From Motilibacter rhizosphaerae (GTDB lineage: Bacteria; Actinomycetota; Actinomycetes; Motilibacterales; Motilibacteraceae): a stretch of 64,000 bases of DNA. The notes below the pieces were generated by a model that saw nothing but the letters and a program-made list of their open reading frames with translations, was not told the origin of the DNA and ran no database searches. The stretch is from contig NZ_SGXD01000001.1 in assembly GCF_004216915.1 (NCBI RefSeq), forward strand, positions 620,001-684,000, given 5' to 3'. Below are positions 3,155 to 60,575 of this stretch, piece by piece. The first letter of the stretch is position 1, and each line of letters opens with the position of its first letter. The translations under genes were made by a program, and so were the position numbers.

Positions 3155-5050
3155 GTGACCTCGACCCTGACCGCGCCTGCCGCCCCGCAACGCGGGGACG
3201 TCCACCCCGAGCCGCTGCTCGTCCGCGCCGCGCAGCTGCCCGAGGTGCGCTGGGCCGCGCTCGCGACGGGGCTCTTCGCGCTGGGCGGCCTCGCGCAGCT
3301 GGGCGGGACTGCGGCCCTGGCCTGGGCGCTGTACTTCGCCTGCTACGCCGCGGGCGGCTGGGAGCCCGGGCTCGCCGGGCTCCGTGCGCTGCGCGAGCGG
3401 ACGCTCGACGTCGACCTGCTCATGGTGGTCGCCGCCGTCCTCGCGGCCTCCATCGGCCAGGTGCTCGACGGCGCGCTGCTCATCGTCATCTTCGCCACCT
3501 CCGGCGCGCTCGAGGCGGTGGCGACGGCGCGGACGGAGGACGCCGTACGCGCCCTGCTGACCGTCGCGCCCGAGACCGCGACGCGGCTGCGGGACGGCGA
3601 GGAGGAGGTGGTGGAGGCGGCCGACCTCGCGGTCGGCGACCTCGTCCTCGTCCGCCCCGGCGAGCGGCTCAGCGCCGACGGGACCGTCGTAGACGGGACG
3701 AGCGAGGTCGACCAGGCGACCATCACCGGCGAGCCGCTCCCGGCGCTGAAGCAGCCCGGGTCGGCGGTCTTCGCCGGCACGCTCAACGGCGCCGGAGCCC
3801 TCACCCTCCGCGTCGACCGGCCGGCCACCGACTCCGTCGTCGCCCGGATCGCCGCGCTGGTCGAGGAGGCCTCGGCCACGAAGGCGCGGACGCAGCTGTT
3901 CGTCGAGGGGATCGAGCAGCGCTACTCGCTCGGCATGGTCGCGGCGACGCTCGCCCTGCTCGTCGTCCCGCTGCTCGCGGGGGCGGAGTTCCAGCCCACC
4001 CTGCTCCGCGCGATGACCTTCATGATCGTGGCGTCGCCCTGCGCGGTCGTCCTCGCGACGATGCCGCCGCTGCTGGCCGCCGTGGCGAACGCCGGGCGCC
4101 ACGGCGTGCTCGTGAAGTCCGCTGTCGTCATGGAGCAGCTCGGGACGGCGACCGTGGCGGCGTTCGACAAGACCGGCACGCTGACCGAGGGCACGCCGCA
4201 GCTCGTGGACGTGCAGCTGCTCGCGGGTCTCTGCCGCGACGAGGTCCTCCGGCTGGCGGCGGGCGCGGAGCGGCCGAGCGAGCACCCGCTCGCGCGGGCG
4301 GTCGTGCGTGCCGCGGTCGACGCGGGCCTGCCTGTGCCCGCAGCGAGGGACTTCTCCTCCAATCCCGGCCGGGGTGTCAGCGCGGTCGTCGAGGGCCGGT
4401 GGGTGGACGTGGGACGTCCCGAGCAGCGGCCGGTCGCGGAGGAGCGGACCGAGGTCGTCGTCTCCGTCGACGGCACGCCCGTCGCCGTCCTCGCGCTCAC
4501 GGATCGGCTGCGCCCCGCTGCGACCGAGGCTGTCCGGGAGCTCAAGGCCCTGACGGGCGCGGACACCCTCCTGCTGACGGGTGACGCGCACGGCCCCGCG
4601 CGAGCGGTCGCGCGAGAGGCCGGCGTCGACCGCGTACGCGCCGGGCTGCTGCCGGCGCAGAAGGCCGACGTCGTCCGCGCCGAGCAGGCCGCCGGCGCCC
4701 GGGTCCTGCTCGTCGGCGACGGGGTGAACGACGCCCCGGCCCTCGCGGTCGCGGACATCGGCATCGCCATGGGCCGGCACGGCTCAGACCTCGCGCTCGA
4801 GACCGCCGACGCCGTCGTGCTCGGCGACGACCTCGCCACCGTGCCCGCGCTGGTCGCGCTCTCGCGTCGGGCGAGGCGAGTCGTCCTCGCCAACCTCGGC
4901 ATCGCCGCCGCCTTCATCACCGTGCTGACGGTGTGGGACCTGCTGGGTGACCTGCCACTGCCCCTGGGGGTCCTCGGGCACGAGGGGTCCACGGTCATCG
5001 TCGGGCTGAACGGACTGCGGCTGCTGCGGCGAGGAGCCTGGAGGGCCTAG
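3155..5050 (+). CDS. P1B-4-type heavy-metal translocating ATPase (CtpD/CtpJ/CoaT-like)
   Basis: 631-aa membrane pump that exports divalent transition metals (Co, Zn, Ni or Fe(II) are typical for the class) using ATP. Diagnostic motifs are TGEP in the actuator domain, SPC at about residues 294-296 in the metal-binding membrane helix (instead of CPC), DKTGT with phosphorylated Asp338, the SEHPLA nucleotide-binding motif, GDGVNDAP, and HEGST in the last helix. SPC plus HEGST and the absence of an N-terminal HMA domain are the hallmarks of subgroup P1B-4. It is divergent from the NmtR/CzrA-like ArsR gene, which supports a metal-efflux pair. The stop codon overlaps the converging GGDEF gene by four bases. 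Confidence 0.9.
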   Translation: MTSTLTAPAAPQRGDVHPEPLLVRAAQLPEVRWAALATGLFALGGLAQLGGTAALAWALYFACYAAGGWEPGLAGLRALRERTLDVDLLMVVAAVLAASIGQVLDGALLIVIFATSGALEAVATARTEDAVRALLTVAPETATRLRDGEEEVVEAADLAVGDLVLVRPGERLSADGTVVDGTSEVDQATITGEPLPALKQPGSAVFAGTLNGAGALTLRVDRPATDSVVARIAALVEEASATKARTQLFVEGIEQRYSLGMVAATLALLVVPLLAGAEFQPTLLRAMTFMIVASPCAVVLATMPPLLAAVANAGRHGVLVKSAVVMEQLGTATVAAFDKTGTLTEGTPQLVDVQLLAGLCRDEVLRLAAGAERPSEHPLARAVVRAAVDAGLPVPAARDFSSNPGRGVSAVVEGRWVDVGRPEQRPVAEERTEVVVSVDGTPVAVLALTDRLRPAATEAVRELKALTGADTLLLTGDAHGPARAVAREAGVDRVRAGLLPAQKADVVRAEQAAGARVLLVGDGVNDAPALAVADIGIAMGRHGSDLALETADAVVLGDDLATVPALVALSRRARRVVLANLGIAAAFITVLTVWDLLGDLPLPLGVLGHEGSTVIVGLNGLRLLRRGAWRA

Positions 5051-6405
5051 CCCGCCTCGTGCTTGTCGCGGTACATGTCGAGGTCGGCCCGCCGCAGCGT
5101 CTCCGTGGGGTCCTCGCCGGGCACCCACTCCGCGCACCCGACCGCGACGTCGATGCCCGCCGACGACCGCAGCCGTGCGAGCAGCCCGGGGGCCGCGTCA
5201 CCCGCCGCCCCGGGGAGCGCGATCGCGAACTCGTCGCCGCCGACCCTGGCGAGGATGTCGCCGGCGCGCAGCTGCTCGCCCCAGCTGCGCGCGGCGCGCT
5301 GCAGCAGCGCGTCACCAGCGGCGTGGCCCTCGCTGTCGTTGACCTGCTTGAGCCCGTTGAGGTCGAGCGAGAGCGGGGCGCCCGTACGCTCCGCGACCGA
5401 CGTGAGGTGCGCGACCATCCGGTCCCACCCGCGGCGGTTCGGCAGCTGCGTCAGCGGGTCGTGCGTGGCGTCGTCGCTCAGCTGCTCGAGGAGCTCGGCC
5501 CGGGTGATGACCTCGCCCGCGGCCCCGGCCAGCAGGGGCATGAGCTGCTCCGCCCGCTCGGGCAGGGAGCCGTCCGCCTCGTGCCAGGCGATGAGGAGGA
5601 CACCGCGTACGGCGCCGTGGAGCAGCACCGGCTCGAAGAACGCCGTGTGCAGGCCGTACTCCGACGCCCGCTCCTGCGTGGCCGGCGGAGAGGTGCTCGA
5701 GGCCGCGACGTAGCGGCGCTCGCCCGTCCGTGCGGTCTCCGCCGCCGGACCGGGATCGCCCACGGGGATCCGCAGGGGTGCGTCCCTGGTGGTCTCGTCA
5801 CGGTGGGCGACCGCGGTCTCGACGAGCTCGCCGTCCTTGCGCTCGAGCAGGAAGACCGCGTCGGCGCGGGCGATCCGCAGCGCGGCGGAGCAGAGGTCGT
5901 GGCGAGCCCGGTCGGGGTCGAAGTGGGCCAGCAGGGTGCCGACCGCGTCGGCGACCGCCTGGAAGGCGGCGGCGCGCTCGCCGTTGCGCTCGGCCCGGTC
6001 CCACAGCGCCGTGACGTCGGCGGCCTGGATGACGACGGCGTCGCCAGCGAGCGGTGCGACCGTCATCCTGATGTGCCGCCACGGTCCGGCGTCGTGCGTC
6101 GCGTCGATCTCGCGCGTGAGCGTCACCTGGTCGCGGTGCGCCGTCACGAGCATCGGCGCGATCAGCGACGGCGCGCCGAACACCTCGTGCACCGTCTGCC
6201 AGGGCCGCCAGGCGACCAGGGGTGCTCCGACCGCTGCTCCTGCGTCGTTGACCGCCGCGAGGCGGAACTGCCCGTCGCCGGCCAGCTGCCAGACGGCGAC
6301 GGGGTCCGGGGAGAGCGCGAACAGCGGCCCGAGTCTCCGCTCGACCTCCTCGGGCGTCCACCCGTGCGCGGGCCCGTCGTCAGGGGGCGCCTCACCCGTG
6401 CTCAT
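5047..6405 (-). CDS. PAS-GAF-GGDEF diguanylate cyclase
   Basis: About 452-aa cytoplasmic protein that should make cyclic di-GMP from two GTP. An N-terminal PAS-like domain (residues about 20-135, ending VVIQAADVTALWDRA) is followed by a GAF-like domain (about 145-310) and a C-terminal GGDEF domain (about 320-452). The catalytic GGDEF signature is intact near residue 389 and is preceded at the right distance by RAGD, the product-inhibition I-site. The usual metal-binding segment reads SLDLNGLK. No membrane segment is seen. The ATG at 6405 follows a GGGAGG tract; an in-frame GTG at 6438 is an alternative. The sensed signal is unknown. Confidence 0.88.
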   Translation of the reverse strand: MSTGEAPPDDGPAHGWTPEEVERRLGPLFALSPDPVAVWQLAGDGQFRLAAVNDAGAAVGAPLVAWRPWQTVHEVFGAPSLIAPMLVTAHRDQVTLTREIDATHDAGPWRHIRMTVAPLAGDAVVIQAADVTALWDRAERNGERAAAFQAVADAVGTLLAHFDPDRARHDLCSAALRIARADAVFLLERKDGELVETAVAHRDETTRDAPLRIPVGDPGPAAETARTGERRYVAASSTSPPATQERASEYGLHTAFFEPVLLHGAVRGVLLIAWHEADGSLPERAEQLMPLLAGAAGEVITRAELLEQLSDDATHDPLTQLPNRRGWDRMVAHLTSVAERTGAPLSLDLNGLKQVNDSEGHAAGDALLQRAARSWGEQLRAGDILARVGGDEFAIALPGAAGDAAPGLLARLRSSAGIDVAVGCAEWVPGEDPTETLRRADLDMYRDKHEAG

Positions 6406-6507
6406 CCCCCGTGCCTCCCCGTGCGCCGTCCCTGTCACGGGCGGCGGTCGACCGACAGACTCGTGTCGGCCTACCCCGCTCCGCTGCAGGTCACGCCACC
6501 GGGTGCG

Positions 6508-9072: not shown

Positions 9073-9498
9073 GTGACGGTGCGGTCGGCTCGGCTCGCGG
9101 GACTGGCGCTCGTGGTCGTGCTCGTCGCGTACGGCGCGGTGCGGGTCCACCGCTCCATCGCCGAGAGCCGCTGCTTCCCTCCTGTTATCCAGGCGTCGCC
9201 GCTGGCCGTGGCCGCTGGTGGGACGCTGGCCGTCGACCGGGGACCCGCGGAGTGCCGGGCGAGCCGGTGGCCTGGCGCTTACGAGCTGGTGCTGCAGGGT
9301 CCTGAGGGCGCGCGGCCGCTGGGCGCCGGGCGGGCCGGGAGTCGCGGTGAACTCCGTCAGGTCGTGACCGTCCCCGCCGATTGGGCGGGGGGACCGGCGT
9401 GGGTAGAGGTACGCGGGGGGACCGAGCCCAGGTGCCCGCGCGGGTCGAAGTGCGCAGATCTCGGTGTGGAGGTGCAGATCCGACCTCGTGCGCAGTAG
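9073..9498 (+). CDS. Small membrane-anchored or secreted protein, unknown function
   Basis: 141 aa starting at GTG 9073 directly after a GGAGGGG tract. One N-terminal hydrophobic segment (about residues 8-24, LAGLALVVVLVAYGAVRV) should anchor or export it. The rest is a small extracytoplasmic domain with four Cys (CFPP, AECR, RCPRGSKCADL) that could form two disulfides, and a beta-rich pattern (VVTVPADW, PAWVEVR, GVEVQI). I do not recognise a family. It lies 31 bases before the GGDEF-EAL gene on the same strand and may be cotranscribed with it. Confidence 0.6.
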   Translation: MTVRSARLAGLALVVVLVAYGAVRVHRSIAESRCFPPVIQASPLAVAAGGTLAVDRGPAECRASRWPGAYELVLQGPEGARPLGAGRAGSRGELRQVVTVPADWAGGPAWVEVRGGTEPRCPRGSKCADLGVEVQIRPRAQ

Positions 9499-9529
9499 CG
9501 TGCGACGAAAGCCGGCTCACGGGGGCCAC

Positions 9530-11542
9530 GTGACCACAGAGACGAGCGCATCCGCCGACAGGTGGAGTCGCCACCCCCTGCCCGACCGGCTGCTCGCTCT
9601 GGCCATGCTGGGCACCGCGACCATCGAGGTGGTCTTCCTCAGCGAACCGCCCGTGGGTGCGCGATCGCTGGCGCTGCGGGTCTTCGTCGGCACTGCGCTC
9701 GTGTTCCACACCCTCGCGGGCGCTTGGCTGCTCGCCACGGCGGGCCACGCGCGGGAGTGGTGGACCCGGATCGCCCTCCTGGAGGCCGACGTCCTCCTCC
9801 TGGCGGTGCCCTACGTGCTGGCGGCGGTGACGGTGCCGGCCATCCTCGTCATGCTGCTGGCCCGGCTGCCCCTCATCGTGACGGTCCTCCCGCGCCGCCA
9901 GATGCTCGTCGCGCTGGCCACCGTCGTGCTCGCGCCCTCCGTCGCGGAGGTCCCCCGCTCGGTGGGCGACCTGCCGTGGGGGCTGGACGCCGAGTGGTCG
10001 TTCCTCGTGGCGGTCGCCGTGGTCGCGGGCAGCACGCACCTCGTCGTCCGCGAGCTGGCCACGGCGCAGGCGGAGGCGCAGGAGCACGAGGAGGCCGCGC
10101 GGCGCTCGGAGACGCAGGCCCGCGCGGAGACCGCCCGGGCGCAGCGGCTGGCGCTCGAGGCGAGCGAGCTGGCGGAGCAGGCTCGCGCCCTGGCCGCCCG
10201 CCGCGAGTACGACGCCCTCCACGACCCGCTCACCGGCCTGCCGAACCGCACCCTCTACCGCGACCGGCTCGCGGCGGCCGTCGCGCACGCGAGCCGGACC
10301 GGCGGTGACGTCGCCGTCCTCCTGCTCGACCTCGACCGCTTCAAGCTCGTCAACGACAGCCGTGGGCACGCGGCCGGTGACGTGCTGCTCCGCTCGCTGG
10401 GGGAGCGGCTCGCCGGCCGGCTGCGCGGCAGCGACACGCTGGCACGCCTCGGGGGCGACGAGTTCGCCGTCGTGCTCCAGGACGTGGACGACCCCGTAGA
10501 CGCCGAGGGGGTTGCCGCGCAGCTCCTCGACGCGCTGCGCGAGCCGTTCGACCTCCGCGACCCCGAGAGCGGAGCGGCGACCGCGCTCTACATCACCGCC
10601 AGCTGCGGCATCGCGTTCGGGCTGGGGCGGCGCGACGACCTCGGTGCCGTGCTGCGCGAGGCGGACACGGCGATGTACCAGGCGAAGGCGCGCGGCCGCG
10701 GACTGGTCGAGGTCTTCGACGCGAGCCTGCGCCACGTCGCCCAGCGCCGCCTCGACCTCGAGAACCAGCTGCGGCATGACCTCGAGACCGGCAGCGGGGC
10801 GCTCTGCGCGTGGTTCCAGCCGGTCGTCGAGCCGCGTACGGGCCGGATCGTCGCGCTCGAGGCGCTCGCGCGATGGACGTGCGCGGGGTACGGCGCCGTG
10901 CCGCCGCCCGAGTTCGTCCACGTCGCCGAGGACTCCGGGCTCGTGCACGAGCTCGGCCGGCGGATGCTCGCGCTCGCGCTGGAGAACGCAGCCAGGTGGG
11001 TGCGCCTGCAGCCCGAGCTGGAGATCGCCGTCAACGTGAGCCCCGTGCAGTTGCAGCAGCCCGGGTTCGCCGAGGACGTGCTGTCCGCGCTGGCGCGCGC
11101 GGAGCTCGACCCGGGCCGGCTGTGCCTCGAGATCACCGAGAGCACCCTGCTCGACCCCGAGCAGCACCACGTCGCCACCCTCCACCTCCTGCACGAGGCG
11201 GGCGTGAAGCTGGCCGTCGACGACTTCGGCTCGGGCTACTCGTCGCTGGCGCAGTTGCGGAGCTTCCCGCTGGACAAGCTCAAGGCGGACAGGTCGTTCG
11301 TGGACGACCTGCCGATCCTGCAGGCCGTGTCCGACCTGGCCCAGGCCCTCGGCGTGGTCCCGCTCGCCGAAGGAGTCGAGACCGTGGAGCAGGCGCGGTT
11401 CGTGGCGGCCCTCGGCTACCAGGAGGCGCAGGGCTACCTGTGGTCGCGTCCACGGCCCCCTGGGGACATCAGCCACCTGCTGCAGGGCGCCGTGATCCCC
11501 GTACCGCTGGAGCTCGACGGGGTGGAGGGGCCCGTCGGGTGA
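9530..11542 (+). CDS. Membrane GGDEF-EAL cyclic-di-GMP signalling protein
   Basis: 670-aa protein with a membrane input domain (about residues 15-170, five or six hydrophobic helices), an Ala/Glu-rich coiled coil (about 175-225), GGDEF (about 235-400) and EAL (about 415-665). The cyclase motif GGDEF starts near residue 308 and has the I-site RGSD upstream. The phosphodiesterase side keeps ALEALARW (Glu near residue 444), AVNVSP, EITEST, DDFGSGYSS and PLAEGVET, so both activities look intact. GTG 9530 is preferred: the frame upstream overlaps the previous gene. The next gene starts inside its stop codon (GTGA), so the two are translationally coupled. Confidence 0.88.
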   Translation: MTTETSASADRWSRHPLPDRLLALAMLGTATIEVVFLSEPPVGARSLALRVFVGTALVFHTLAGAWLLATAGHAREWWTRIALLEADVLLLAVPYVLAAVTVPAILVMLLARLPLIVTVLPRRQMLVALATVVLAPSVAEVPRSVGDLPWGLDAEWSFLVAVAVVAGSTHLVVRELATAQAEAQEHEEAARRSETQARAETARAQRLALEASELAEQARALAARREYDALHDPLTGLPNRTLYRDRLAAAVAHASRTGGDVAVLLLDLDRFKLVNDSRGHAAGDVLLRSLGERLAGRLRGSDTLARLGGDEFAVVLQDVDDPVDAEGVAAQLLDALREPFDLRDPESGAATALYITASCGIAFGLGRRDDLGAVLREADTAMYQAKARGRGLVEVFDASLRHVAQRRLDLENQLRHDLETGSGALCAWFQPVVEPRTGRIVALEALARWTCAGYGAVPPPEFVHVAEDSGLVHELGRRMLALALENAARWVRLQPELEIAVNVSPVQLQQPGFAEDVLSALARAELDPGRLCLEITESTLLDPEQHHVATLHLLHEAGVKLAVDDFGSGYSSLAQLRSFPLDKLKADRSFVDDLPILQAVSDLAQALGVVPLAEGVETVEQARFVAALGYQEAQGYLWSRPRPPGDISHLLQGAVIPVPLELDGVEGPVG

Positions 11543-34243: not shown

Positions 34244-34666
34244 ATGACGCTGACCACCGAGAGCACTGCCGTCCCCCAGCAGGCCGACGCCGCCGAGGGC
34301 GTCTGGACCCGCGTGTGCCAGCTCGACGACCTGCAGCCGGAGGTCGGCGCCGCCGCGCTCGTCGCCGGCCAGCAGGTGGCGCTGTTCCGCCTGCTCGACG
34401 GCACCGTGCTCGCGACGGGCAACCAGGACCCGTTCAGCGGCGCCAACGTCATGTCGCGCGGGATCGTCGGTACGCGGGGCGACATCGCGACCGTGGCCTC
34501 GCCGATGCACAAGCAGGTCTTCGACCTGCGCAGCGGCACCTGCCTGGACGACGCGTCCGTGGCGCTGCCGGTCTACCCTGTCGTCGTGAGCAACGGCTTC
34601 GTCGAGGTGCGCCTGCCCGAGGGCCTCCCCTCGAGCGTGGTGGGTCGCCCGCGCGCCGTCGCATGA
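34244..34666 (+). CDS. nirD: Assimilatory nitrite reductase small subunit NirD
   Basis: 140-aa Rieske-fold partner of NirB. The fold pattern is seen (WTRVCQLDDLQPEVGAAALV, VALFRLLDGTVLATGNQDPF, GDIATVASPMHKQVFDLRSG, YPVVVSNGFVEVRLP), but the CxH...CxxH cluster ligands are absent, as is normal for NirD. ATG 34244 follows AGGAGG; longer frames upstream would translate the regulatory box. Its stop overlaps the start of the HemD-like gene (ATGA). Confidence 0.92.
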   Translation: MTLTTESTAVPQQADAAEGVWTRVCQLDDLQPEVGAAALVAGQQVALFRLLDGTVLATGNQDPFSGANVMSRGIVGTRGDIATVASPMHKQVFDLRSGTCLDDASVALPVYPVVVSNGFVEVRLPEGLPSSVVGRPRAVA

Positions 34667-35862
34667 GCGCAGCGCTCGTGGAGGGCGACGCCCCGGGACC
34701 GGAGCGCGGCAGCGCCACGGTGCTCGCGGGGTGGACCGTCGGGGTCACCGCGGCCCGGCGGGCCGACGAGCTCGGCAACCTGCTGGAGCGGCGCGGGGCG
34801 AAGGTCGTGCACGCCCCCGCGATCAGGATCGTCCCCCTGCCCGACGACTCCGAGCTGCTCGCGGCGACGCGCGCCTGCCTCACCGGCCCGCTGGACCTCG
34901 CGGTCGCGACGACGGGCATCGGCTTCCGCGGCTGGATGGAGGCGGCGGAGGGCTGGGGTCTCGGCGACGAGCTGCGCGAGCGGCTCTCCGCGGCCGAGGT
35001 GCTCTGCCGCGGGCCCAAGGCGCGCGGTGCCGTCCGCGCCGCCGGCCTCGTCGACGCCTGGTCGCCCGCCTCCGAGTCCTCCTCCGAGGTGCTCGCCCAC
35101 CTGCTCGAGCACGACCTCGACGGCAAGCGGATCGCAGTGCAGCTGCACGGCGAGCCCCTGCCCGACTTCATCGACGCCCTGCTCGCCGCGGGGGCCGACG
35201 TCGTCCAGGTGCCGGTCTACCGCTGGGTGCCGCCGGACGACATCACCCCGCTGCAGCGGATGGTGGAGCTCGTCCTCACCGGCGGTGTCGACGCGCTGAC
35301 CTTCACCAGCGCCCCCGCCGTGTCCAGCCTGCTGCGCATCGCCGCGTCCGCCGGTGCCGAGGACGCGGTGCTCGAGGCGCTGCGCACCCGGGTGCTGCCG
35401 ATCTGCGTCGGCCCGGTCACCGCGGGTCCGCTCGACCGGCGCGACGTCCCGACCGTGCAGCCGGGCCGCGCCCGGATCGGCGCGCTCGTCCGCGAGGTGT
35501 GCGAGGTGCTGCCCGCCCGCGCGGTGCGCCTGCCGGTCGCCGGGCACGCGCTGGAGGTACGCGGTTCCGCCGTCCTCGTCGACGACACCCTCGTCCCCCT
35601 GCCCCCCGTGCCGATGGCGCTGATCAAGGCGCTCGCGAAGCACCCCGGCCGCGTCGTGTCGCGGGCCGAGCTGCTGCGCGCCGCGCCGGGCGGCGGCACC
35701 GACGAGCACGCGGTGGAGATGGCGGTCACCCGGCTGCGTGCCGCGCTCGGTGACTCCCGCTGCATCCAGACCGTCGTCAAGCGCGGCTACCGGCTCGCCT
35801 ACGACCCCGAGCACGCGCTGCCGGGGCCCGGCTCCGCCGACGGCAAGTACGCCGCGACGTGA
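34663..35862 (+). CDS. Uroporphyrinogen-III synthase-like (HemD) fused to OmpR-type winged helix
   Basis: 399 aa. Residues about 20-285 form a HemD-like bilobed domain (LAGWTVGVTAARRADELGNL, LDLAVATTGIGFRGWMEAAE, DALTFTSAPAVSSLLRIAA). Residues about 300-390 form a C-terminal winged helix of the OmpR/PhoB effector type (VPMALIKALAKHPGRVVSRA, EMAVTRLRAALGD, IQTVVKRGYRLAYD). Such fusions occur next to nitrite/nitrate genes in actinobacteria, where they may act as regulators sensing a tetrapyrrole rather than, or as well as, making uroporphyrinogen III for siroheme. Coupled to nirD by ATGA and to the chelatase by GTGA overlap. Confidence 0.87.
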   Translation: MSAALVEGDAPGPERGSATVLAGWTVGVTAARRADELGNLLERRGAKVVHAPAIRIVPLPDDSELLAATRACLTGPLDLAVATTGIGFRGWMEAAEGWGLGDELRERLSAAEVLCRGPKARGAVRAAGLVDAWSPASESSSEVLAHLLEHDLDGKRIAVQLHGEPLPDFIDALLAAGADVVQVPVYRWVPPDDITPLQRMVELVLTGGVDALTFTSAPAVSSLLRIAASAGAEDAVLEALRTRVLPICVGPVTAGPLDRRDVPTVQPGRARIGALVREVCEVLPARAVRLPVAGHALEVRGSAVLVDDTLVPLPPVPMALIKALAKHPGRVVSRAELLRAAPGGGTDEHAVEMAVTRLRAALGDSRCIQTVVKRGYRLAYDPEHALPGPGSADGKYAAT

Positions 35863-36570: not shown

Positions 36571-38733
36571 CTAGGCCTTCGCCTCGTACATGCGCCGGTC
36601 CGCCACGTCCAGCAGCGCGTCGGGAGTGCTGCCGTCGTGCGGTGACCTGGCGATACCCACGGCAGCCCCCACGGTCACGCGGACGCCCGTGTCCAGCGCG
36701 ACCGGCACCGCTGCGGCGGCGGCGAGGTGCCCGGCCGCCCGCTGCGCCGGAGCGGGGTCGCCCGCCGGCAGGTGGGCGAGGACGGCGACGAACTCGTCGC
36801 CGCTGTAGCGCGCGAGCAGGTCACCGCTGCGGAGGACTCCTCGCATGCGGGTGGCGAGGGTGCTGAGCACGATGTCGCCGGCCGCATGGCCGTGCGTGTC
36901 GTTGACGCCCTTGAACCCGTTGAGGTCGAGGAAGAGGACGGCCACCTCGTGGCCGCCCCGGATCGCGCGGGCGAGCTCCAGCTCGAGGTGGTCGAGGAGC
37001 TGCACGCGGTTCGGCAGGCCCGTGAGCAGGTCGTGGTAGGCCAGGAAGCTGGCCCGCTCCTCGCGCTGCACGCGCTCGGTGACGTCGTCCTGGTTGCCGA
37101 TGAAGTGGGTGACCTCCCCGCTCGCGCCGAGGACGGGCGAGATCGTCACCTCGTTCCAGAACGGCGAGCCGTCACGCCGGTAGTTGAGCAGGGTGCTGCG
37201 GACCGAGCGCCCCGCGGCGAGCTGGCGGGCGATCGGCCGCACCTGCGTGGGGTCGGTCTTCGGCCCCTGCAGCAGGCGGCAGTTGCGGCCGAGCACCTCG
37301 TCGGCGGCGTAGCCCGTGAGCTCGAGGAAGGCCTGGTTGACGTAGACGAGGGGCCAGTCCGGCTGCTGGGCGTCGGCGATCGTGATGCCGTTGGTCGCGG
37401 TGTCGATCGCCCGCAGCAGGAGCTCGGGGAGCTCCACGGCGGGAAGCGCAGCAGCCCCCGCAGGGACGGGGCCGCCTCTCGAGGGGCGGTGCGACGGGGC
37501 CGGTGCACGACGTACGCGCTCCAGCAGCAGCGTCGCAGCCTCGACGACGCGCGTGCGGTCGTGGGTCAGGACGAACGCGTACCGGCGCTCCCCGTCCTCC
37601 TTCGGCTCCTCCTCCCGGGCGGCGATGGCCGCGGCGTAGTGCGGGCCGACGACGCAGACGGCCCACTCCTCGGCGAGGGGGTCGTCGGCGGGCACGTGCG
37701 TCCCGTGCACGCCCGGGACCGGCGCGGCCGGCATCCCCGGACCCAGGACGGCGGTGAACGCCGAGACCTCCGCGAGTGCCTCGTAGCGGCGCCTGGTCGG
37801 CGTCGTCAGCGCGGTGACGTGCTGGAAGTTGGCGAGGACGACGGTGAGGTCGTCGAGCAGCAGGGCCTGGCGCTCGAGCTGGCGCGACATCGCGGCGAGC
37901 AGCGGGACCCCGGCGACGCCCGGCGCGCTCGCCGCGCTGAGGACGGCGAAGGGGGTGCCGGCGCGCGCCTCCGCCGCCCGGGCCGGAGGCAGCCGGAGCG
38001 CGCCACCGACGCGGGCCACGGCGTCGGCCGGCCGGCCGAAGCGCCAGCCCTGGCCGAGCCGGGCGCCGGTCGCGAGGGCGCGCTCCAGGTGCTCCTCGGT
38101 CTCGATGCCCTCCGCCAGGATGAGCGCGCCGCTGCGCTCGGCCTGCGCGTGCACGGCGTTGATGGTGGTGGCGACCGAGAGCGACGGCTGCTGGCGGACC
38201 AGGGCGAGGTCCAGCTTGATGACGTCGGGCGCCAGGAAGGGCATGAGGGCGAGCGCGGCGGGCTCGGCGCCGACGTCGTCGAGCGCCACCCCCCACCCGC
38301 ACTCCCGCGCGCGGCGCACGCCGGCCAGGAGCTCGGCGGGGGAGTCGAGCAGGTCGCGCTCGGTGACCTCGACGACGACCCGCACTCCGGGCGCGACCGC
38401 GCTCGCGAGCTCGGCGAGGCGCCTGGTGGACAGCGCGCCGAGCGTGGCGGGCTCGACGTTGACGAACACCGTGCCCGGGGCCCGCGCCTCCGCAGCCCGG
38501 GCGAGCGCGCCGGCGAGGCACCGCTCGTCCAGGTCGCGGAGGGCGCCCTCGCCCGTACGCGCCGCCGCCGCGAACAGGTCGTCGGGCGGGACCTCCTCGT
38601 CGCCGGAGCGCGCCCGCGTCAGCGCCTCGACCCCGACGAACGTGCCGGTGGTCAGGTCGACGATGGGCTGGAAGACCGTACGGAGCTCCGCGCTGAGGAC
38701 GGCGGTGCGCTCCGAGCCGCTCGACCTGTCCAC
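36571..38733 (-). CDS. EAL - DICT - LOV(PAS) - GGDEF protein: candidate blue-light c-di-GMP switch
   Basis: 720 aa, soluble. EAL comes first (about residues 10-240: GVEALTRA, FVNVEP, EVTERD, DDVGAEPAAL, VIKLDLALV, ILAEGIETEEH). A DICT-like sensory domain follows (about 260-420, LLLDDLTVVLANFQHVTALT). Then a LOV-type PAS domain carries GRNCRLLQGPKTDPTQVR with photoactive Cys485, NYRRDGSPFWNEVTISPV and FIGNQDDVTER, the FMN-binding Asn and Gln positions. The GGDEF domain (about 560-720) has SGDEF at about residue 644 and the I-site RSGD. EAL before GGDEF is an unusual order. The flavin-Cys adduct implies blue-light control. The GTG start is supported by domain boundaries only. Confidence 0.87.
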   Translation of the reverse strand: MDRSSGSERTAVLSAELRTVFQPIVDLTTGTFVGVEALTRARSGDEEVPPDDLFAAAARTGEGALRDLDERCLAGALARAAEARAPGTVFVNVEPATLGALSTRRLAELASAVAPGVRVVVEVTERDLLDSPAELLAGVRRARECGWGVALDDVGAEPAALALMPFLAPDVIKLDLALVRQQPSLSVATTINAVHAQAERSGALILAEGIETEEHLERALATGARLGQGWRFGRPADAVARVGGALRLPPARAAEARAGTPFAVLSAASAPGVAGVPLLAAMSRQLERQALLLDDLTVVLANFQHVTALTTPTRRRYEALAEVSAFTAVLGPGMPAAPVPGVHGTHVPADDPLAEEWAVCVVGPHYAAAIAAREEEPKEDGERRYAFVLTHDRTRVVEAATLLLERVRRAPAPSHRPSRGGPVPAGAAALPAVELPELLLRAIDTATNGITIADAQQPDWPLVYVNQAFLELTGYAADEVLGRNCRLLQGPKTDPTQVRPIARQLAAGRSVRSTLLNYRRDGSPFWNEVTISPVLGASGEVTHFIGNQDDVTERVQREERASFLAYHDLLTGLPNRVQLLDHLELELARAIRGGHEVAVLFLDLNGFKGVNDTHGHAAGDIVLSTLATRMRGVLRSGDLLARYSGDEFVAVLAHLPAGDPAPAQRAAGHLAAAAAVPVALDTGVRVTVGAAVGIARSPHDGSTPDALLDVADRRMYEAKA

Positions 38734-40971: not shown

Positions 40972-42876
40972 ATGACGCGAAGCACGACCGCCCGCGGTGC
41001 GCTGGCGATGGTCGGTCTGGTCGGTGGCCTGCTGGCCGTGGGCGCCCCGGCGCACGCGCAGCAGCCGGAGGCGGACCCCCGGTCCAGCCAGTCCACCTGG
41101 CTCGCTGTCGCGGACGGGGACCTCGGCGCCGCCAGCGCCGCCGCCACGCGCGCCGGCGCCCAGGTCACGAAGACGCTGCCGGGGATCGGCCAGCTCGTCC
41201 TCCGCGCCGACGCGGCCGAGGTCGCCGCGCTGCGGGCCTCGGGCACCGTCCGCTCCGTGACCCTGGACGCGCACGTGCACCTGTCGGCGGCGACCTTCGA
41301 CCCGAGCACGGACCCGGGCAGCTCGTACAACGTCACGCAGGCCATCGGCGCCCGCGACATGTGGAAGGCCGGCTACACCGGCAGCGGCATCGACATCGCG
41401 CTCATCGACAGCGGCGTCGCTCCCGGCACCTCCGCCGGCTGGCGCATGGTCTCGGGCCCGGACCTCTCGTTCGACTCGCAGGACCCGAACGCACGGCGGG
41501 GCGACAAGTTCGGCCACGGCACGCACCTCGCGAGCATCATGGTGGGCGACGACAACACCGCGGACAAGATGACGAACACGGGCGCGCAGCTGGGCGTCGC
41601 TCCGGACGCCCGCGTCATCAGCGTCAAGGTCGGCGACGTCAACGGCGGTGTCGACGTCTCGCAGGTCATCGCGGCGATCGACTGGTGCGTGCAGAACAAG
41701 GCGAACCAGGTGAACCTCCGGGTCATCAACCTCTCGTTCGGCACGGACAGCAAGCAGGCGTGGAACCTCGACCCCGTCGCGTACGCCGCGGAGGCCGCCG
41801 ACCGCAAGGGCATCGTCGTCGTCGCGGCCGCGGGCAACACGGGGGGCGTCGGGCTCGACGACCCGGCGTACGACCCGAACGTCCTGGCCGTCGGGGCGTC
41901 CGACCCGCGCGGGACCGTCAGCACGTCCGACGACGCGGTGGCGAGCTTCTCCACCCGCGGCAACGGCACGCGCAACCCCGACCTCGTCGCTCCCGGCGTC
42001 GGCATCGTCGGCCTGCGCGCCCCCGGCTCGGTCATCGACTCCGAGGTCCCCGGCGGCGGCTCCCGCTGGCTGCGCGGCACCGGCACGAGCCAGGCCGCCG
42101 CGGTCGTCTCCGGCGCAGTCGCCCTGCTCCTGCAGCAGCGCAGCGCCCTGACCCCGGAGCAGGTCAAGGCGATCCTGCGGGGGAGCGCGACGCCGCTGAC
42201 CGGCTTCAGCGCCGCGGACCAGGGCGCCGGCGAGCTCAACCTCACCAAGGCGATGGCGTACGCGACGCCGGCCGCCAGCCAGGCGCAGGCCGGGACGGGC
42301 ACCGGCACGATCGACGCCGCGCGCGGCAGCCAGGTGCTCATCCTCGACACCAAGCCGCTCACCGGCGAGGTGGACGTCTACGGCAACCCGGTCAACACCG
42401 CGCAGCTGGCCTCGCTGGCCAACAGCGGCGCGGCCTGGAACCAGGGCTCCTTCAACGGCCAGCTCTGGGCGCAGAACTACTGGGACAACGCCAACGTCGT
42501 CACCGGCGCCGAGCAGACCTGGGGCAGCGTCGACCTCACCGCTCGCCCGCTGTGGTCGGGGCTGACCCTGTCCGGCTGGACGAGCCGCTCCTGGTCCAGC
42601 CGCTCGTGGTCGAGCCGGTCGTGGTCCAGCCGGTCCTGGTCCGGTCGCTACTGGAGCGACATGGCGTGGCAGGTGCCGGACGGTACGGCGCCCGCCGCCG
42701 CGACGAGCACGACGACCGCGGCCTGCAGCACGCTCCCCGCGTGGAGCGCCGGGGCGACGTACAACGGCGGCAGCTCGGTGACCTACGGCGGGCGGAAGTG
42801 GACCGCGCGCTACTGGACGCAGGGGAACACCCCTGGCGACGCGACCGGGGTGTGGGGCACCAGCGCCAGCTGCTGA
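40972..42876 (+). CDS. Secreted subtilisin-like (S8) protease with W-x4 repeat tail and chitin-binding-like module
   Basis: 634 aa. Signal peptide (AHA cleavage about residue 29), an inhibitor-I9-like propeptide (about 40-105), then the S8 catalytic domain with Asp146 (ALIDSGV), His182 (GHGTHLAS) and Ser373 (GTSQAAA); oxyanion Asn in AAAGNTGG. After the catalytic domain, residues about 536-566 place Trp at every fifth position (SRSWSSRSW pattern, seven Trp). The C-terminal ~50 residues form a carbohydrate-binding CBM5/12-like module (WSAGATYNGGSSVTYGGRKW, YWTQGNTPG). The tail and binding module suggest attachment to wall or polysaccharide. A strong terminator follows. Confidence 0.9.
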   Translation: MTRSTTARGALAMVGLVGGLLAVGAPAHAQQPEADPRSSQSTWLAVADGDLGAASAAATRAGAQVTKTLPGIGQLVLRADAAEVAALRASGTVRSVTLDAHVHLSAATFDPSTDPGSSYNVTQAIGARDMWKAGYTGSGIDIALIDSGVAPGTSAGWRMVSGPDLSFDSQDPNARRGDKFGHGTHLASIMVGDDNTADKMTNTGAQLGVAPDARVISVKVGDVNGGVDVSQVIAAIDWCVQNKANQVNLRVINLSFGTDSKQAWNLDPVAYAAEAADRKGIVVVAAAGNTGGVGLDDPAYDPNVLAVGASDPRGTVSTSDDAVASFSTRGNGTRNPDLVAPGVGIVGLRAPGSVIDSEVPGGGSRWLRGTGTSQAAAVVSGAVALLLQQRSALTPEQVKAILRGSATPLTGFSAADQGAGELNLTKAMAYATPAASQAQAGTGTGTIDAARGSQVLILDTKPLTGEVDVYGNPVNTAQLASLANSGAAWNQGSFNGQLWAQNYWDNANVVTGAEQTWGSVDLTARPLWSGLTLSGWTSRSWSSRSWSSRSWSSRSWSGRYWSDMAWQVPDGTAPAAATSTTTAACSTLPAWSAGATYNGGSSVTYGGRKWTARYWTQGNTPGDATGVWGTSASC

Positions 42877-50012: not shown

Positions 50013-51809
50013 ATGGCGGGCGTGAGGTCCGCACCCGCTCCCGCCGAGGAGCCGTCGCGCCCCCGCTCACCTGGCCTCCAGGGCGAGCTGCGGGCGAGCT
50101 GGCGGCTGCTCGCGGGCGTGCTCGGGCTGCTGCTCGCGACCGTGACCTGCTCCACCGCGTACCTCCAGTTCGGGCTCGGTCCGCAGCTCTCCCGCGTGCA
50201 GTCGACGGTCAGCGAGCTGCGCTGCCTGCAGGTGGCGATGACCGACCGGGAGGGCTCTCTGCGGACCTGGGCCGCGACCGGCGACGCCGCCCCGCTCGCG
50301 CAGCAGCGCGCCGCCGCCGCCCGGGTCGAGGACTGCGGCCGCTCGCTCGTCGCCGGCGCCAGCGGCGTCCCGGACGGCTCGCTCGTCACCATGCTCGTGC
50401 AGTCCGCGCTGTGGGGCAGGGTCTGGTCCGCCGCTGACGCCCCGGCAGCGGCGACACCGACCACGGCCCAGCTGCGCCCGCTGCTCGCCGACGACTCCAC
50501 GGCCTTCGAGCGCTACCGCCAGGCGCAGGACACCGCGATCAAGCAGGCGCTCGCCAGCCGCGACAGCCTCCTGCGCCGTCAGGACCTGCTGGTACGCGGC
50601 ACCGGCGCCGTCGTCGCCTCGCTCGTCATGGGCGTGCTCGTCGTCGACCTGCGCCGCCGCCGCCGGCTGGAGCGCCTGGTCGACGAGCCCGTGCAGGGCC
50701 TCGTCACGACCATGGACCGCGTGCTGCGCGGCGAGCTCGGCGTGCAGCCGCCGGAGCTCGACGTCCCCGAGCTGGCCCGGCTCGGCGAGGGGATCGGCGC
50801 GCTCGCCCGCCGCCTCGAGCGCGAGCAGGCCCAGGGGATGCTGCGGGAGGAGTCGGCCCTGCGCCACGGGTCCCGGCTGCAGGTGGTCCTCGGCGTCGCC
50901 CGCGCGACGGCCGGGTCGCCCAGCCCGCACCAGGTCGCCCAGACCGTCGCCGCCGCCGCCATCGAGCTGGGCCGCGTGTCCGCCGTCGTGTGGCTGGAGG
51001 AGCGCGAGGGGGAGGCGTTCGTCCCCGTGCTGCCCGAGAGCAGCACGGCGCCCGTCCCCGAGGGCGCGCCGCCCGGGCCGGTCCAGCGCGCCGCGGTCGA
51101 GGCCCGCTCGGTGCGCCAGGGCGACCGCGCCTCCTTCCCGCTGGTCGTCGCCGGCCGCGTGGTCGGCGTGCTCGACGTGCTCGACGAGGCCTGGGACGAC
51201 GAGGACTCCGCGCAGGTCGACTCCGTGCTCGAGGCGCTCGCCCGCTTCGCCGCCGTCGCCCTGCAGTCCGCGCGCCTGCACGCCCAGACGCTCGAGCAGG
51301 CGCGCGGCGACGCGCTGACCGGCCTGCGCAACCGGCACAGCCTCGACGCCGAGCTGCCGGTCGAGTTCACCCGCTCGCGCCGCTACGACCGCCCGCTCTC
51401 GGTCGCGCTGCTCGACGTCGACCACTTCAAGCGCGTCAACGACACCGCCGGCCACGCGGTCGGCGACGCGTGGCTGCGCCTCGTCGGCGGCATCGTGCTC
51501 GACGGCCTGCGCACCTCCGACAGCGCCTACCGGTACGGCGGTGAGGAGCTCGTCGTCGTCCTCCCCGAGACCGACCTCGACGCCGCCGTCCTCGTCGCCG
51601 AGCGGCTGCGCGAGGCCGTGGCCGCGTGCGCGGGACCCAAGGCGTACCCGACGGTGACCGTGTCGATCGGCGTTGCTACCGTCAACCACGCGATGGCGGG
51701 GTACGAGGACGTCCTCGCCGCCGCCGACGCCGCGCTGTACGCCGCCAAGCGCTCCGGGCGCAACAGGGTCGTCCACTCCGGCGAGGTCGTGGAGGCCCTG
51801 CCCGTCTGA
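50013..51809 (+). CDS. Membrane GAF-GGDEF diguanylate cyclase
   Basis: 598 aa. Helix 1 (about residues 30-50), a helical extracytoplasmic sensor (about 51-195), helix 2 (about 198-215), a HAMP-like linker (LVDEPVQGLVTTMDRVLRGE), GAF (about 285-425) and GGDEF (about 435-590). The active site reads GGEEL near residue 509, an accepted variant, and the I-site RTSD precedes it. It should synthesise c-di-GMP in response to an external cue. The ATG at 50013 is 74 bases from the divergent MocR start. A small membrane-protein gene follows by 15 bases. Confidence 0.88.
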   Translation: MAGVRSAPAPAEEPSRPRSPGLQGELRASWRLLAGVLGLLLATVTCSTAYLQFGLGPQLSRVQSTVSELRCLQVAMTDREGSLRTWAATGDAAPLAQQRAAAARVEDCGRSLVAGASGVPDGSLVTMLVQSALWGRVWSAADAPAAATPTTAQLRPLLADDSTAFERYRQAQDTAIKQALASRDSLLRRQDLLVRGTGAVVASLVMGVLVVDLRRRRRLERLVDEPVQGLVTTMDRVLRGELGVQPPELDVPELARLGEGIGALARRLEREQAQGMLREESALRHGSRLQVVLGVARATAGSPSPHQVAQTVAAAAIELGRVSAVVWLEEREGEAFVPVLPESSTAPVPEGAPPGPVQRAAVEARSVRQGDRASFPLVVAGRVVGVLDVLDEAWDDEDSAQVDSVLEALARFAAVALQSARLHAQTLEQARGDALTGLRNRHSLDAELPVEFTRSRRYDRPLSVALLDVDHFKRVNDTAGHAVGDAWLRLVGGIVLDGLRTSDSAYRYGGEELVVVLPETDLDAAVLVAERLREAVAACAGPKAYPTVTVSIGVATVNHAMAGYEDVLAAADAALYAAKRSGRNRVVHSGEVVEALPV

Positions 51810-58031: not shown

Positions 58032-60575
58032 GTGGAGAGCTGGCGTGCGGCACTGCCGCGCTACGGCCCCCACGCGCTCACGGGCCTCCTGAGCATCGCG
58101 GCCGTCGCGCTCATCGCCCTCGCGGTGGACGTCGTCCCGGGCAGCGGACGGCCGTGGGACCTGCTCTGGCTGACCGTCGCCTTCCTGCTCGCGGACATGC
58201 TCGTGCTCAAGCTCGAGGTCCGCCGGCAGACGCTCGTCGTGCACTTCGCCGAGATCCCTCTCGTGGTCGGCCTGCTCGTCTCCGGGCCGGTGTGGCTGGT
58301 GCTCGCCCGCACGCTCGGCGTCGGCATCGGCGGGGTGCTGGGGAAGCTGCCGCCGTACAAGTGGTTCTTCAACGTCGCGCTCTACCTCGTCGCGACCACC
58401 CTCGCCGTCCTCAGCTTCCACGTCCTGGCGGACGACACGCACACCAGCCACCACGGTGCTGCGGCAGCGGCAGCGGCCGCTGTCTCCACCGCGGCGGCCG
58501 CGCTGTTCGAGTTCGTCGTCGTGCAGGTCGTCATCGCGCTGGTGCAGGCCCGGCCCCCCTCGCGGCAGATCATGCTCGCGCTCTGGACCCTCGTCCTCAG
58601 CGGCGCGGTGAGCGTGCTCACGGGTCTCGTCGTCGTCACCCTGCTGCAGGGGCAGGTCTGGCAGCGCTGGCTCCTCGTCCCGCTGGCCGTCGTCATCTAC
58701 CTCGCCTACCGGGCGTACTCGCGCCTGCTCGGGCGGCACCTCGCGCTGGAGCGGCTCTACGAGATGGCCCGCTCGGCCCGTTCCTCCACCGACCGCCAGC
58801 AGGCGCTGGAGGCGCTGCTCCAGCGCGTCCGCGACGTGCTCAACGCCGAGGAGGCGCGCATCGTCGTGCCGCCCGACGAGCACAGCCCGTACGGCTGGTC
58901 CGCGCGCTCGTGGGAGGACGGCTTCGAGGTGCCGGCGGGGGGCGACGGGGTCCTCCACGAGCTCGTCCGCAGCAGCGGTGCCCCGCGGCTCGTCTCCTCG
59001 GGCACGAACGACCCGGCGCTGCAGCGCTGGCTGCGCGAGCGCGGCGCCCGCGAGGCGATCGTCGTGGCGCTCTCCGGTGAAGCGGGGATCATCGGCACGC
59101 TCGAGGTGACCGACCACCTGGCGGAGGTGCGCCCCTTCGGCCCGGCGGACGTCGAGCTGCTCGAGACGCTCGCCGCGCACGCCGGGTTCGCACTGGAGAA
59201 CAGCAACCTCCTGGAGCGCCTGCAGTACGACGCCACGCACGACCCGCTCACCGGTCTCGGCAACCGCGTCGCGTTCGTCGACGCGCTCACCGCGGCGCTC
59301 GACGGGAAGCAGCCCGCCGCCGTGTGCATGCTCGACCTCGACGAGTTCAAGGACATCAACGACGCGCTCGGGCACCACAGCGGCGACCGGTTGCTGCACC
59401 TCGTCGCCGAGCGGCTCTCCGCCGCCCTCCCCGAGGCCGCGCTCGTGGCGCGCTTCGGTGGTGACGAGTTCGGCGTCCTCCTCCACACGGCGGAGCAGTC
59501 GGTCGCCGAGCAGGTCGCGCGGCGCATCGTCGAGGCGCTCGCCGAGCCGGTCCCGCTCGCGGAGGCGGTGATCCACGTCGGCGCCTCGATCGGGGTGGCC
59601 CTCGCGCCGGAGCACGCGCACGACGCCGCGGTGCTGCTGCAGCGCGCCGAGATCGCGATGTACGCCGCCAAGGAGGCCGGGCGCGACCTCCGGGTCTTCG
59701 ACTCCACCCTGGACGACGGCACGCCGCGCCGGCTCGCGCTCGTCGCCGAGCTGCGCGACGCCCTCCGCCAGTCCGAGCTCGTCGTCTACTACCAGCCGAA
59801 GGTGCGCCTGGACGACGAGGAGATCGCCGGCGTCGAGGCCCTCGTCCGCTGGCACCACCCGACGCGCGGCATCGTCGGGCCCGACGACTTCATCCCGCTC
59901 GCGGAGCGCTCCGGCCTCATCGAGCCGCTGACGGGCGTCGTGCTCGAGTCGAGCCTGCGCCAGTGCCGCGCCTGGCTCGACGAGGGCAAGCACGTCCCCG
60001 TCGCCGTCAACATCAGCGTGCGCGCGCTGCTCGACCCCGGCTTCGTCGAGCAGGTGGCCCGCGTGCTCGAGCGCACGGGCGTCGCCCCCGCGATGCTGAC
60101 GCTGGAGCTCACCGAGTCCAGCGTCATGAGCGACCTGCCGCGGTGCATGGGCACGCTGCACCAGCTGGTCGCGTCGGGCGTGCGGATCTCGGTCGACGAC
60201 TTCGGTACGGGGTGGTCCTCGCTCAGCCAGCTGCGCCACCTGCCCGCCTCCGAGGTGAAGATCGACAAGTCCTTCATCCTCGCCATGGCCACCGACGAGC
60301 ACGACATCGCCGTCGTGGGCGCCATCGTCAAGCTCGCGCACGACCTCGGCAAGCGCGTCGTCGCCGAGGGCATCGAGGACAAGCTGACCTGGCGCAAGCT
60401 CGCCGACCTCGGGTGCGACGTCGCGCAGGGCTTCTTCCTCAGCCGCCCGCTGCCGCCGGAGCGGCTGGCGGCCTGGATGCGCGAGAACGCCCTCTCGCCC
60501 GGGCACCCCGTGGACGCGCCGGACGCGGCGGTGCGGCGCAAGGCGTACCCTTTGCGGCTCGTCTCGCGGGGCTAG
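58032..60575 (+). CDS. Seven-TM-type GAF-GGDEF-EAL c-di-GMP protein
   Basis: 847 aa. An N-terminal membrane domain of six to seven helices (about residues 14-230; RYGPHALTGLLSIAAVALIA, LLWLTVAFLLADMLVL, WLLVPLAVVIYLAYRAYS), GAF (about 245-395), GGDEF (about 405-565, GGDEF at about 476) and EAL (about 580-830). The cyclase I-site RxxD is absent, so product inhibition is unlikely. EAL residues are complete: GVEALVRW (Glu602), AVNISV, ELTESS, DDFGTGWSSL, VKIDKSF, VVAEGIED. Its start is GTG. It follows the GAGWR protease on the same strand and may be cotranscribed. Confidence 0.88.
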   Translation: MESWRAALPRYGPHALTGLLSIAAVALIALAVDVVPGSGRPWDLLWLTVAFLLADMLVLKLEVRRQTLVVHFAEIPLVVGLLVSGPVWLVLARTLGVGIGGVLGKLPPYKWFFNVALYLVATTLAVLSFHVLADDTHTSHHGAAAAAAAAVSTAAAALFEFVVVQVVIALVQARPPSRQIMLALWTLVLSGAVSVLTGLVVVTLLQGQVWQRWLLVPLAVVIYLAYRAYSRLLGRHLALERLYEMARSARSSTDRQQALEALLQRVRDVLNAEEARIVVPPDEHSPYGWSARSWEDGFEVPAGGDGVLHELVRSSGAPRLVSSGTNDPALQRWLRERGAREAIVVALSGEAGIIGTLEVTDHLAEVRPFGPADVELLETLAAHAGFALENSNLLERLQYDATHDPLTGLGNRVAFVDALTAALDGKQPAAVCMLDLDEFKDINDALGHHSGDRLLHLVAERLSAALPEAALVARFGGDEFGVLLHTAEQSVAEQVARRIVEALAEPVPLAEAVIHVGASIGVALAPEHAHDAAVLLQRAEIAMYAAKEAGRDLRVFDSTLDDGTPRRLALVAELRDALRQSELVVYYQPKVRLDDEEIAGVEALVRWHHPTRGIVGPDDFIPLAERSGLIEPLTGVVLESSLRQCRAWLDEGKHVPVAVNISVRALLDPGFVEQVARVLERTGVAPAMLTLELTESSVMSDLPRCMGTLHQLVASGVRISVDDFGTGWSSLSQLRHLPASEVKIDKSFILAMATDEHDIAVVGAIVKLAHDLGKRVVAEGIEDKLTWRKLADLGCDVAQGFFLSRPLPPERLAAWMRENALSPGHPVDAPDAAVRRKAYPLRLVSRG

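Follow-up and report, generated by a model that had tools for sequence, protein, structure and literature searches.

The window, the whole 64-kb stretch of DNA analyzed, encodes a four-domain protein on its minus strand. The open reading frame runs from 38733 to 36571 (GTG start; GC3 0.96) and specifies 720 amino acids, with no alternative in-frame start. Pfam comparison placed, from the N- to the C-terminus, an EAL domain (residues 10-235), a DICT domain (271-374), a PAS_9/LOV domain (about 441-555), and a GGDEF domain (565-719), in agreement with the coordinates, domain order, and residue numbers given by the initial annotation. The DICT match scored 38.9 bits against a curated cut-off of 23.8. 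The features of the gene are as follows.

36571..38733, minus strand: EAL-DICT-LOV-GGDEF gene, 720 aa, GTG start at 38733 and stop at 36571
38029..38706, minus strand: EAL phosphodiesterase domain, residues 10-235 (PF00563, 2.1e-36)
37498..38004, minus strand: DICT region, residues 244-412, Pfam core 271-374 (PF10069, 1e-9)
37432..37497, minus strand: DICT-LOV tether, residues 413-434, low confidence (pLDDT <50 at 414-428)
37084..37428, minus strand: LOV domain, about residues 436-550 (PF13426, 2.6e-22)
37279..37281, minus strand: codon of the adduct-forming Cys485
37024..37086, minus strand: helical linker from LOV to GGDEF, 21 residues counted from D550 in DVT through L570 in DLLT
36577..37041, minus strand: GGDEF diguanylate cyclase domain, residues 565-719 (PF00990, 1.3e-38), SGDEF at 644-648, I-site R635/D638

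The gene seems to stand alone. Its neighbors, coding for CbiX, HemD with a response-regulator wHTH, a DeoR regulator, and an aldose epimerase, were found beside none of the relatives, among them a close one from the same family whose surroundings were inspected over 18 kb, and gene neighborhood was therefore rejected as a functional clue. A promoter and terminator scan at the gene returned nothing with a sigma-70 pattern that is poorly suited to GC-rich actinobacteria. The HemD neighbor is a uroporphyrinogen-III synthase fused to a response-regulator-type DNA-binding domain (34315-35862, plus strand), located 3' of NirB- and NirD-like genes. At 40972-42876 (plus strand) lies the gene of a subtilase that carries a chitin-binding-type module (CBM5/12) at its C-terminus, the two parts being separated by a run of WSSRSWSSRS repeats. 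Four more c-di-GMP proteins are present within the same 64 kb:

5047-6438, minus strand: GAF-GGDEF
9464-11542, plus strand: GGDEF-EAL
50013-51809, plus strand: GGDEF with a weak GAF match
58032-60575, plus strand: GAF-GGDEF-EAL

GGDEF domains are very abundant in the genome, which has several dozen in 4.3 Mb. Elsewhere it also encodes three further LOV domains with an intact NCRFLQ (L098, L099, and L100), bringing the number of LOV domains to five in all.

The EAL domain, related in match searches to RocR, DosP, and BifA, contains 11 of 11 catalytic and substrate positions (Q22, E36, R40, N92, E122, E125, D152, D153, K173, E208, and Q228), the metal- and substrate-binding residues and the loop-6-stabilizing Glu all being present. 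The initial annotation of a complete EAL therefore holds for the catalytic residues but not for loop 6, which reads DDVGAEPAAL instead of the canonical DDFG(T/A)GYSSL. DDVGA(D/E)xxxL or a close variant is common to the tabulated family members, whereas the other EALs of the same genome carry DDFG(T/S)GYSSL. Since the variant is common across the family, it looks from the sequences like a constrained alternative rather than decay. Class II EALs whose signature residues deviate in part have been listed as functional (PMC12900916). Degenerate compound helices are often found in inactive EALs, in which key catalytic residues are frequently substituted too (PMC3989770).

Modeled alone, the DICT region reached a pLDDT of 93. 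In a structural second look the predicted model matched TrmBL2/TrmB sensor domains at Z 11.0-11.5 (5box: Z 11.5, 3.3 A over 124 residues), followed at Z about 10 by Nuc, NucT, Zucchini, PLD3, and PPK1, all of PLD-like fold. With a Foldseek E value of only 0.03, assignment of the model to a PLD/TrmB-sensor-like fold is a strong lead rather than proof; searching solved structures with the DICT sequence gave nothing significant. The HxKx4D catalytic motif of PLD was absent from the DICT stretch of all 86 proteins, suggesting that DICT is related to the PLD enzymes, at most, as a non-catalytic domain. The only statements on DICT found in the literature were a predicted role in light response (PMC8612252), a fusion to HD-GYP (PMC7063779), and "no discernible physiological purpose" (PMC8846402). 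The control genomes of Synechococcus elongatus and Haloferax volcanii contain DICT as well. According to the model, the tether that follows DICT is probably disordered.

The PAS domain had been annotated as a LOV domain with GRNCRLLQG and a photoactive Cys485, and the residue number proved exactly right. The adduct Cys of the G-x-N-C-R-x-L-Q motif is C485 in GRNCRLLQ, and the later strands supply the flavin-contact Asn, Asn, and Gln as N517, N527, and Q548. All of N484, C485, R486, Q489, N517, N527, and Q548, the residues that hold the flavin and form the adduct in LOV domains, are there. The best solved-structure matches of this stretch were LOV proteins (9vf7, 1.2e-38; 6hmj, an RNA-binding LOV receptor, 4.1e-37), and the domain is predicted to bind flavin.

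The description of the GGDEF domain as active-looking was likewise borne out. SGDEF conforms to (G/S/A)G(D/E)EF and is accompanied by the metal Asp D603, base-binding N611 and D612, and DLLT for DxLT, while the RxxD of the I-site (R635-S-G-D638) precedes the motif by five residues. In the full-length model (mean pLDDT 89, pTM 0.61) the domains were well formed, and a helix at 552-566 ran from LOV into GGDEF. Placement of the domains in this monomer model is not reliable because residues 414-428, which tether LOV to DICT, were modeled with low confidence. The top PDB match of the model was 8c05, a dark-state LOV-activated cyclase (E 1.9e-23, 33% identity).

Solved and described systems share parts of this arrangement. 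LadC proteins fall into linker classes of 21 and 35 residues, counted from the Asp of DVT to the Leu of DxLT (PMC10396304); the linker is 21 residues here. Short-linker LadCs are activated by light about 15-fold and have a leaky dark state, whereas 35-residue LadCs are activated >10,000-fold and have a tight dark state (PMC10396304). As in MsLadC (8c05), AoLadC, and DpLadC (PMC10396304), LOV is followed directly by GGDEF, with the same 21/35 linker classes. The protein differs from LadC, which has exactly one LOV and one GGDEF, and falls outside the LadC definition (PMC10396304), in its additional EAL-DICT front, the Leu at the F/I position of NCRLLQ, and SGDEF. Its LOV-GGDEF portion nonetheless probably functions as a LadC does. 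Pieces of LOV-GGDEF with a 21-residue linker cut from LOV-GGDEF-EAL proteins gave no light-regulated synthesis (PMC10396304). The LOV-GGDEF protein of Mesorhizobium loti is light-repressed (PMC9098866), and SL2 of S. elongatus is a blue-light-activated phosphodiesterase (PMC8846402). With light-activated cyclases, a light-repressed one, and a light-activated phosphodiesterase among the homologues, homology leaves the sign of the light effect unsettled. SL2, compared here by description, shares one LOV, a GGDEF, and an EAL as well as blue-light-regulated c-di-GMP turnover, but its EAL is C-terminal and not N-terminal as here. BlrP1 (BLUF-EAL) also places an EAL phosphodiesterase under blue-light control, but through a BLUF sensor with other flavin chemistry and without GGDEF or DICT. 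DICT-HD-GYP of Microcystis (PMC7063779) likewise joins DICT to a c-di-GMP phosphodiesterase, but HD-GYP replaces EAL and LOV-GGDEF was not reported there.

The EAL-first order had been called unusual, which is accurate within the genome, where all other paired EAL domains come after their GGDEF, but not across the actinobacteria, where the same order forms a family. A second gene of the same architecture is present in the genome (L002, 48% identity), and a full-length relative (E 1e-100 or better) was found in 7 of 297 genomes of the class. Relatives were collected from a GTDB genome scan with the EAL-DICT half by peptide patterns, and the best 80 loci were taken. These comprised 68 EAL-DICT-LOV-GGDEF (one with DICT matched in two pieces), five EAL-DICT-LOV, four EAL-DICT, two EAL-DICT-GGDEF, and one fragment, proportions that describe best matches and are not an unbiased census. 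Hosts among the 80 include Geodermatophilus, Modestobacter, and Blastococcus, Kineococcus, Pseudokineococcus, and Quadrisphaera, as well as Cellulomonas, Nocardioides, and Motilibacter; the 68 with the full architecture come from Geodermatophilaceae and Kineosporiaceae and from Motilibacter, Cellulomonas, and Nocardioides. Motilibacter deserti accounts for one genome of the taxonomic family to which the window belongs, since L009 and L017 have the same sequence. The open-access literature yielded no paper on the EAL-DICT-LOV-GGDEF order, which is weak evidence as subscription papers lay mostly outside the search, and the order apparently represents a sizeable, undescribed actinobacterial family.

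Seventeen members with a LOV domain had a LOV-GGDEF linker of 21 residues, and almost all the rest had one of 35 (L046, which has no LOV, was not counted despite a printed linker of 21). In a tree of the EAL-DICT half, 16 short-linker proteins formed one clade (100/100 support) and the long-linker proteins another, with L015 as a short-linker exception on a long branch. The two clades are paralogous, and one short-linker and one long-linker gene occur together in the window's own genome and in two relatives of its family. The eleven EAL catalytic residues were identical in 86 of 86 proteins, a count partly conditioned by the scan for N92, E122, and E125, which lie inside the peptide patterns, the other eight lying outside. 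All seven LOV residues were kept in 77 of 85 scored proteins and in every member (16/16) of this protein's own, short-linker clade; among the remaining eight, five had no LOV domain, one retained the Cys, and two from Kineococcus (L065 and L073) had lost it. GGDEF was intact throughout the short-linker clade (16/16) and was degenerate in 13/67 and absent in 7/67 long-linker members (together 20/67). This difference between clades gave a Fisher p of 0.009, which ignores relatedness, and corresponds to 10 changes on the tree.

Taken at the level of sequence, a blue-light receptor acting on c-di-GMP turnover, as initially annotated, is well supported by the LOV residues intact across the short-linker clade and by the structural match to 8c05; that light tips the balance between synthesis and breakdown is possible. 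The favored reading, with a probability of roughly 55%, is that the enzyme responds to blue light and both makes and degrades c-di-GMP, with LOV acting in the first place on GGDEF by way of the short helix, and with EAL as the target of DICT. Computation established the order of the domains, the integrity of the motifs, their conservation, the linker class, and the predicted folds; flavin binding, catalysis, the direction of the light effect and its target, and the DICT ligand are predictions of this model. The protein would be a soluble photoreceptor enzyme in which blue light causes the LOV flavin to bond to Cys485. The change would travel along the helix leaving LOV straight into GGDEF, over the 21 residues of the short LadC class, and would produce a moderate rise in diguanylate cyclase activity above a dark level that is not zero. 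The N-terminal EAL would be a c-di-GMP phosphodiesterase adjoining DICT, a putative ligand- or state-sensing domain of PLD/TrmB-like fold. Since the connection between EAL-DICT and LOV is a flexible tether, light would reach EAL, if at all, via dimer rearrangement and not through a rigid helix. Three inputs would thus be integrated, namely light at LOV, a second cue at DICT, and product feedback at the I-site. Against this reading stand the homologues without light-regulated synthesis, with light repression, or with light-activated phosphodiesterase activity, the departure of EAL loop 6 from the consensus of proven enzymes, and the replacement of GGDEF by SGDEF.

Light might instead mainly control the EAL phosphodiesterase, as in SL2 (PMC8846402), with GGDEF as a regulatory or GTP-sensing partner. 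The invariance of the EAL residues beside the repeated degeneration or absence of GGDEF among long-linker members favors such control. Furthermore, LOV is intact in most members whose GGDEF is dead or missing and can thus serve EAL alone; the light signal there must be read by a part other than the cyclase, and as EAL is the sole other catalytic domain, light must, judging from these architectures, act on the phosphodiesterase in cyclase-less long-linker relatives. For the short-linker protein studied here EAL control is rather doubtful, as GGDEF is intact in every member of its clade and the connection between LOV and GGDEF matches light-driven cyclases in its fixed length, while the EAL-DICT half hangs on a low-confidence tether. 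The altered loop 6 could also mean that EAL is weak or inactive and serves as a c-di-GMP-binding receptor gating the LOV-GGDEF cyclase. The divergence of the family loop from that of the genome's other EALs and the frequency of degenerate compound helices in inactive EALs (PMC3989770) point in this direction, but none of the eleven catalytic residues was ever lost, unlike in inactive EALs, where loss is frequent (PMC3989770), and deviating class II EALs are listed as functional (PMC12900916), making a receptor role improbable. Redox sensing has been suggested for flavin PAS domains (RmcA; PMC8846402), and LOV might bind flavin yet function chiefly in redox or metabolic sensing, or be light-insensitive in vivo. 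A redox flavin domain needs no adduct Cys, however, and the retention of Cys485 and its partners throughout the clade renders this very improbable.

Extended from the bifunctional, cyclase-first enzyme to its relatives, a tentative picture, and one that is itself somewhat unlikely in full, is that actinobacteria of soils and deserts possess a c-di-GMP switch with two inputs, in which DICT, as a ligand-binding PLD/TrmB-like domain, sets EAL and LOV sets GGDEF. Where one cell has both paralogues, the short linker might then give a graded response to light and the long linker a tight one, and repeated cyclase loss might have produced pure light-controlled phosphodiesterases among some long-linker members. 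Light-controlled c-di-GMP enzymes are sought as tools in optogenetics, and the arrangement bears on the route by which light is relayed to either of two opposing catalytic domains within a single protein. The family is worth more than the one gene, as it constitutes a natural experiment with two linker lengths, cyclase-intact and cyclase-dead members, and a common EAL-DICT front, while the PLD/TrmB-like fold offers a structural lead for the DICT sensory domain.

Some individual members depart from the common architecture. EAL-DICT-LOV proteins ending just past the LOV helix, without GGDEF, were found in Modestobacter (L054, L063, L069, and L072) and Quadrisphaera (L092) and are candidate pure light-controlled phosphodiesterases by their domain content. 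L046 and L064 from Blastococcus are without LOV, and L065 and L073 from Kineococcus are without the Cys and other flavin contacts. EAL and DICT are kept in all four, which possibly mark a route from light sensor to light-blind enzyme.
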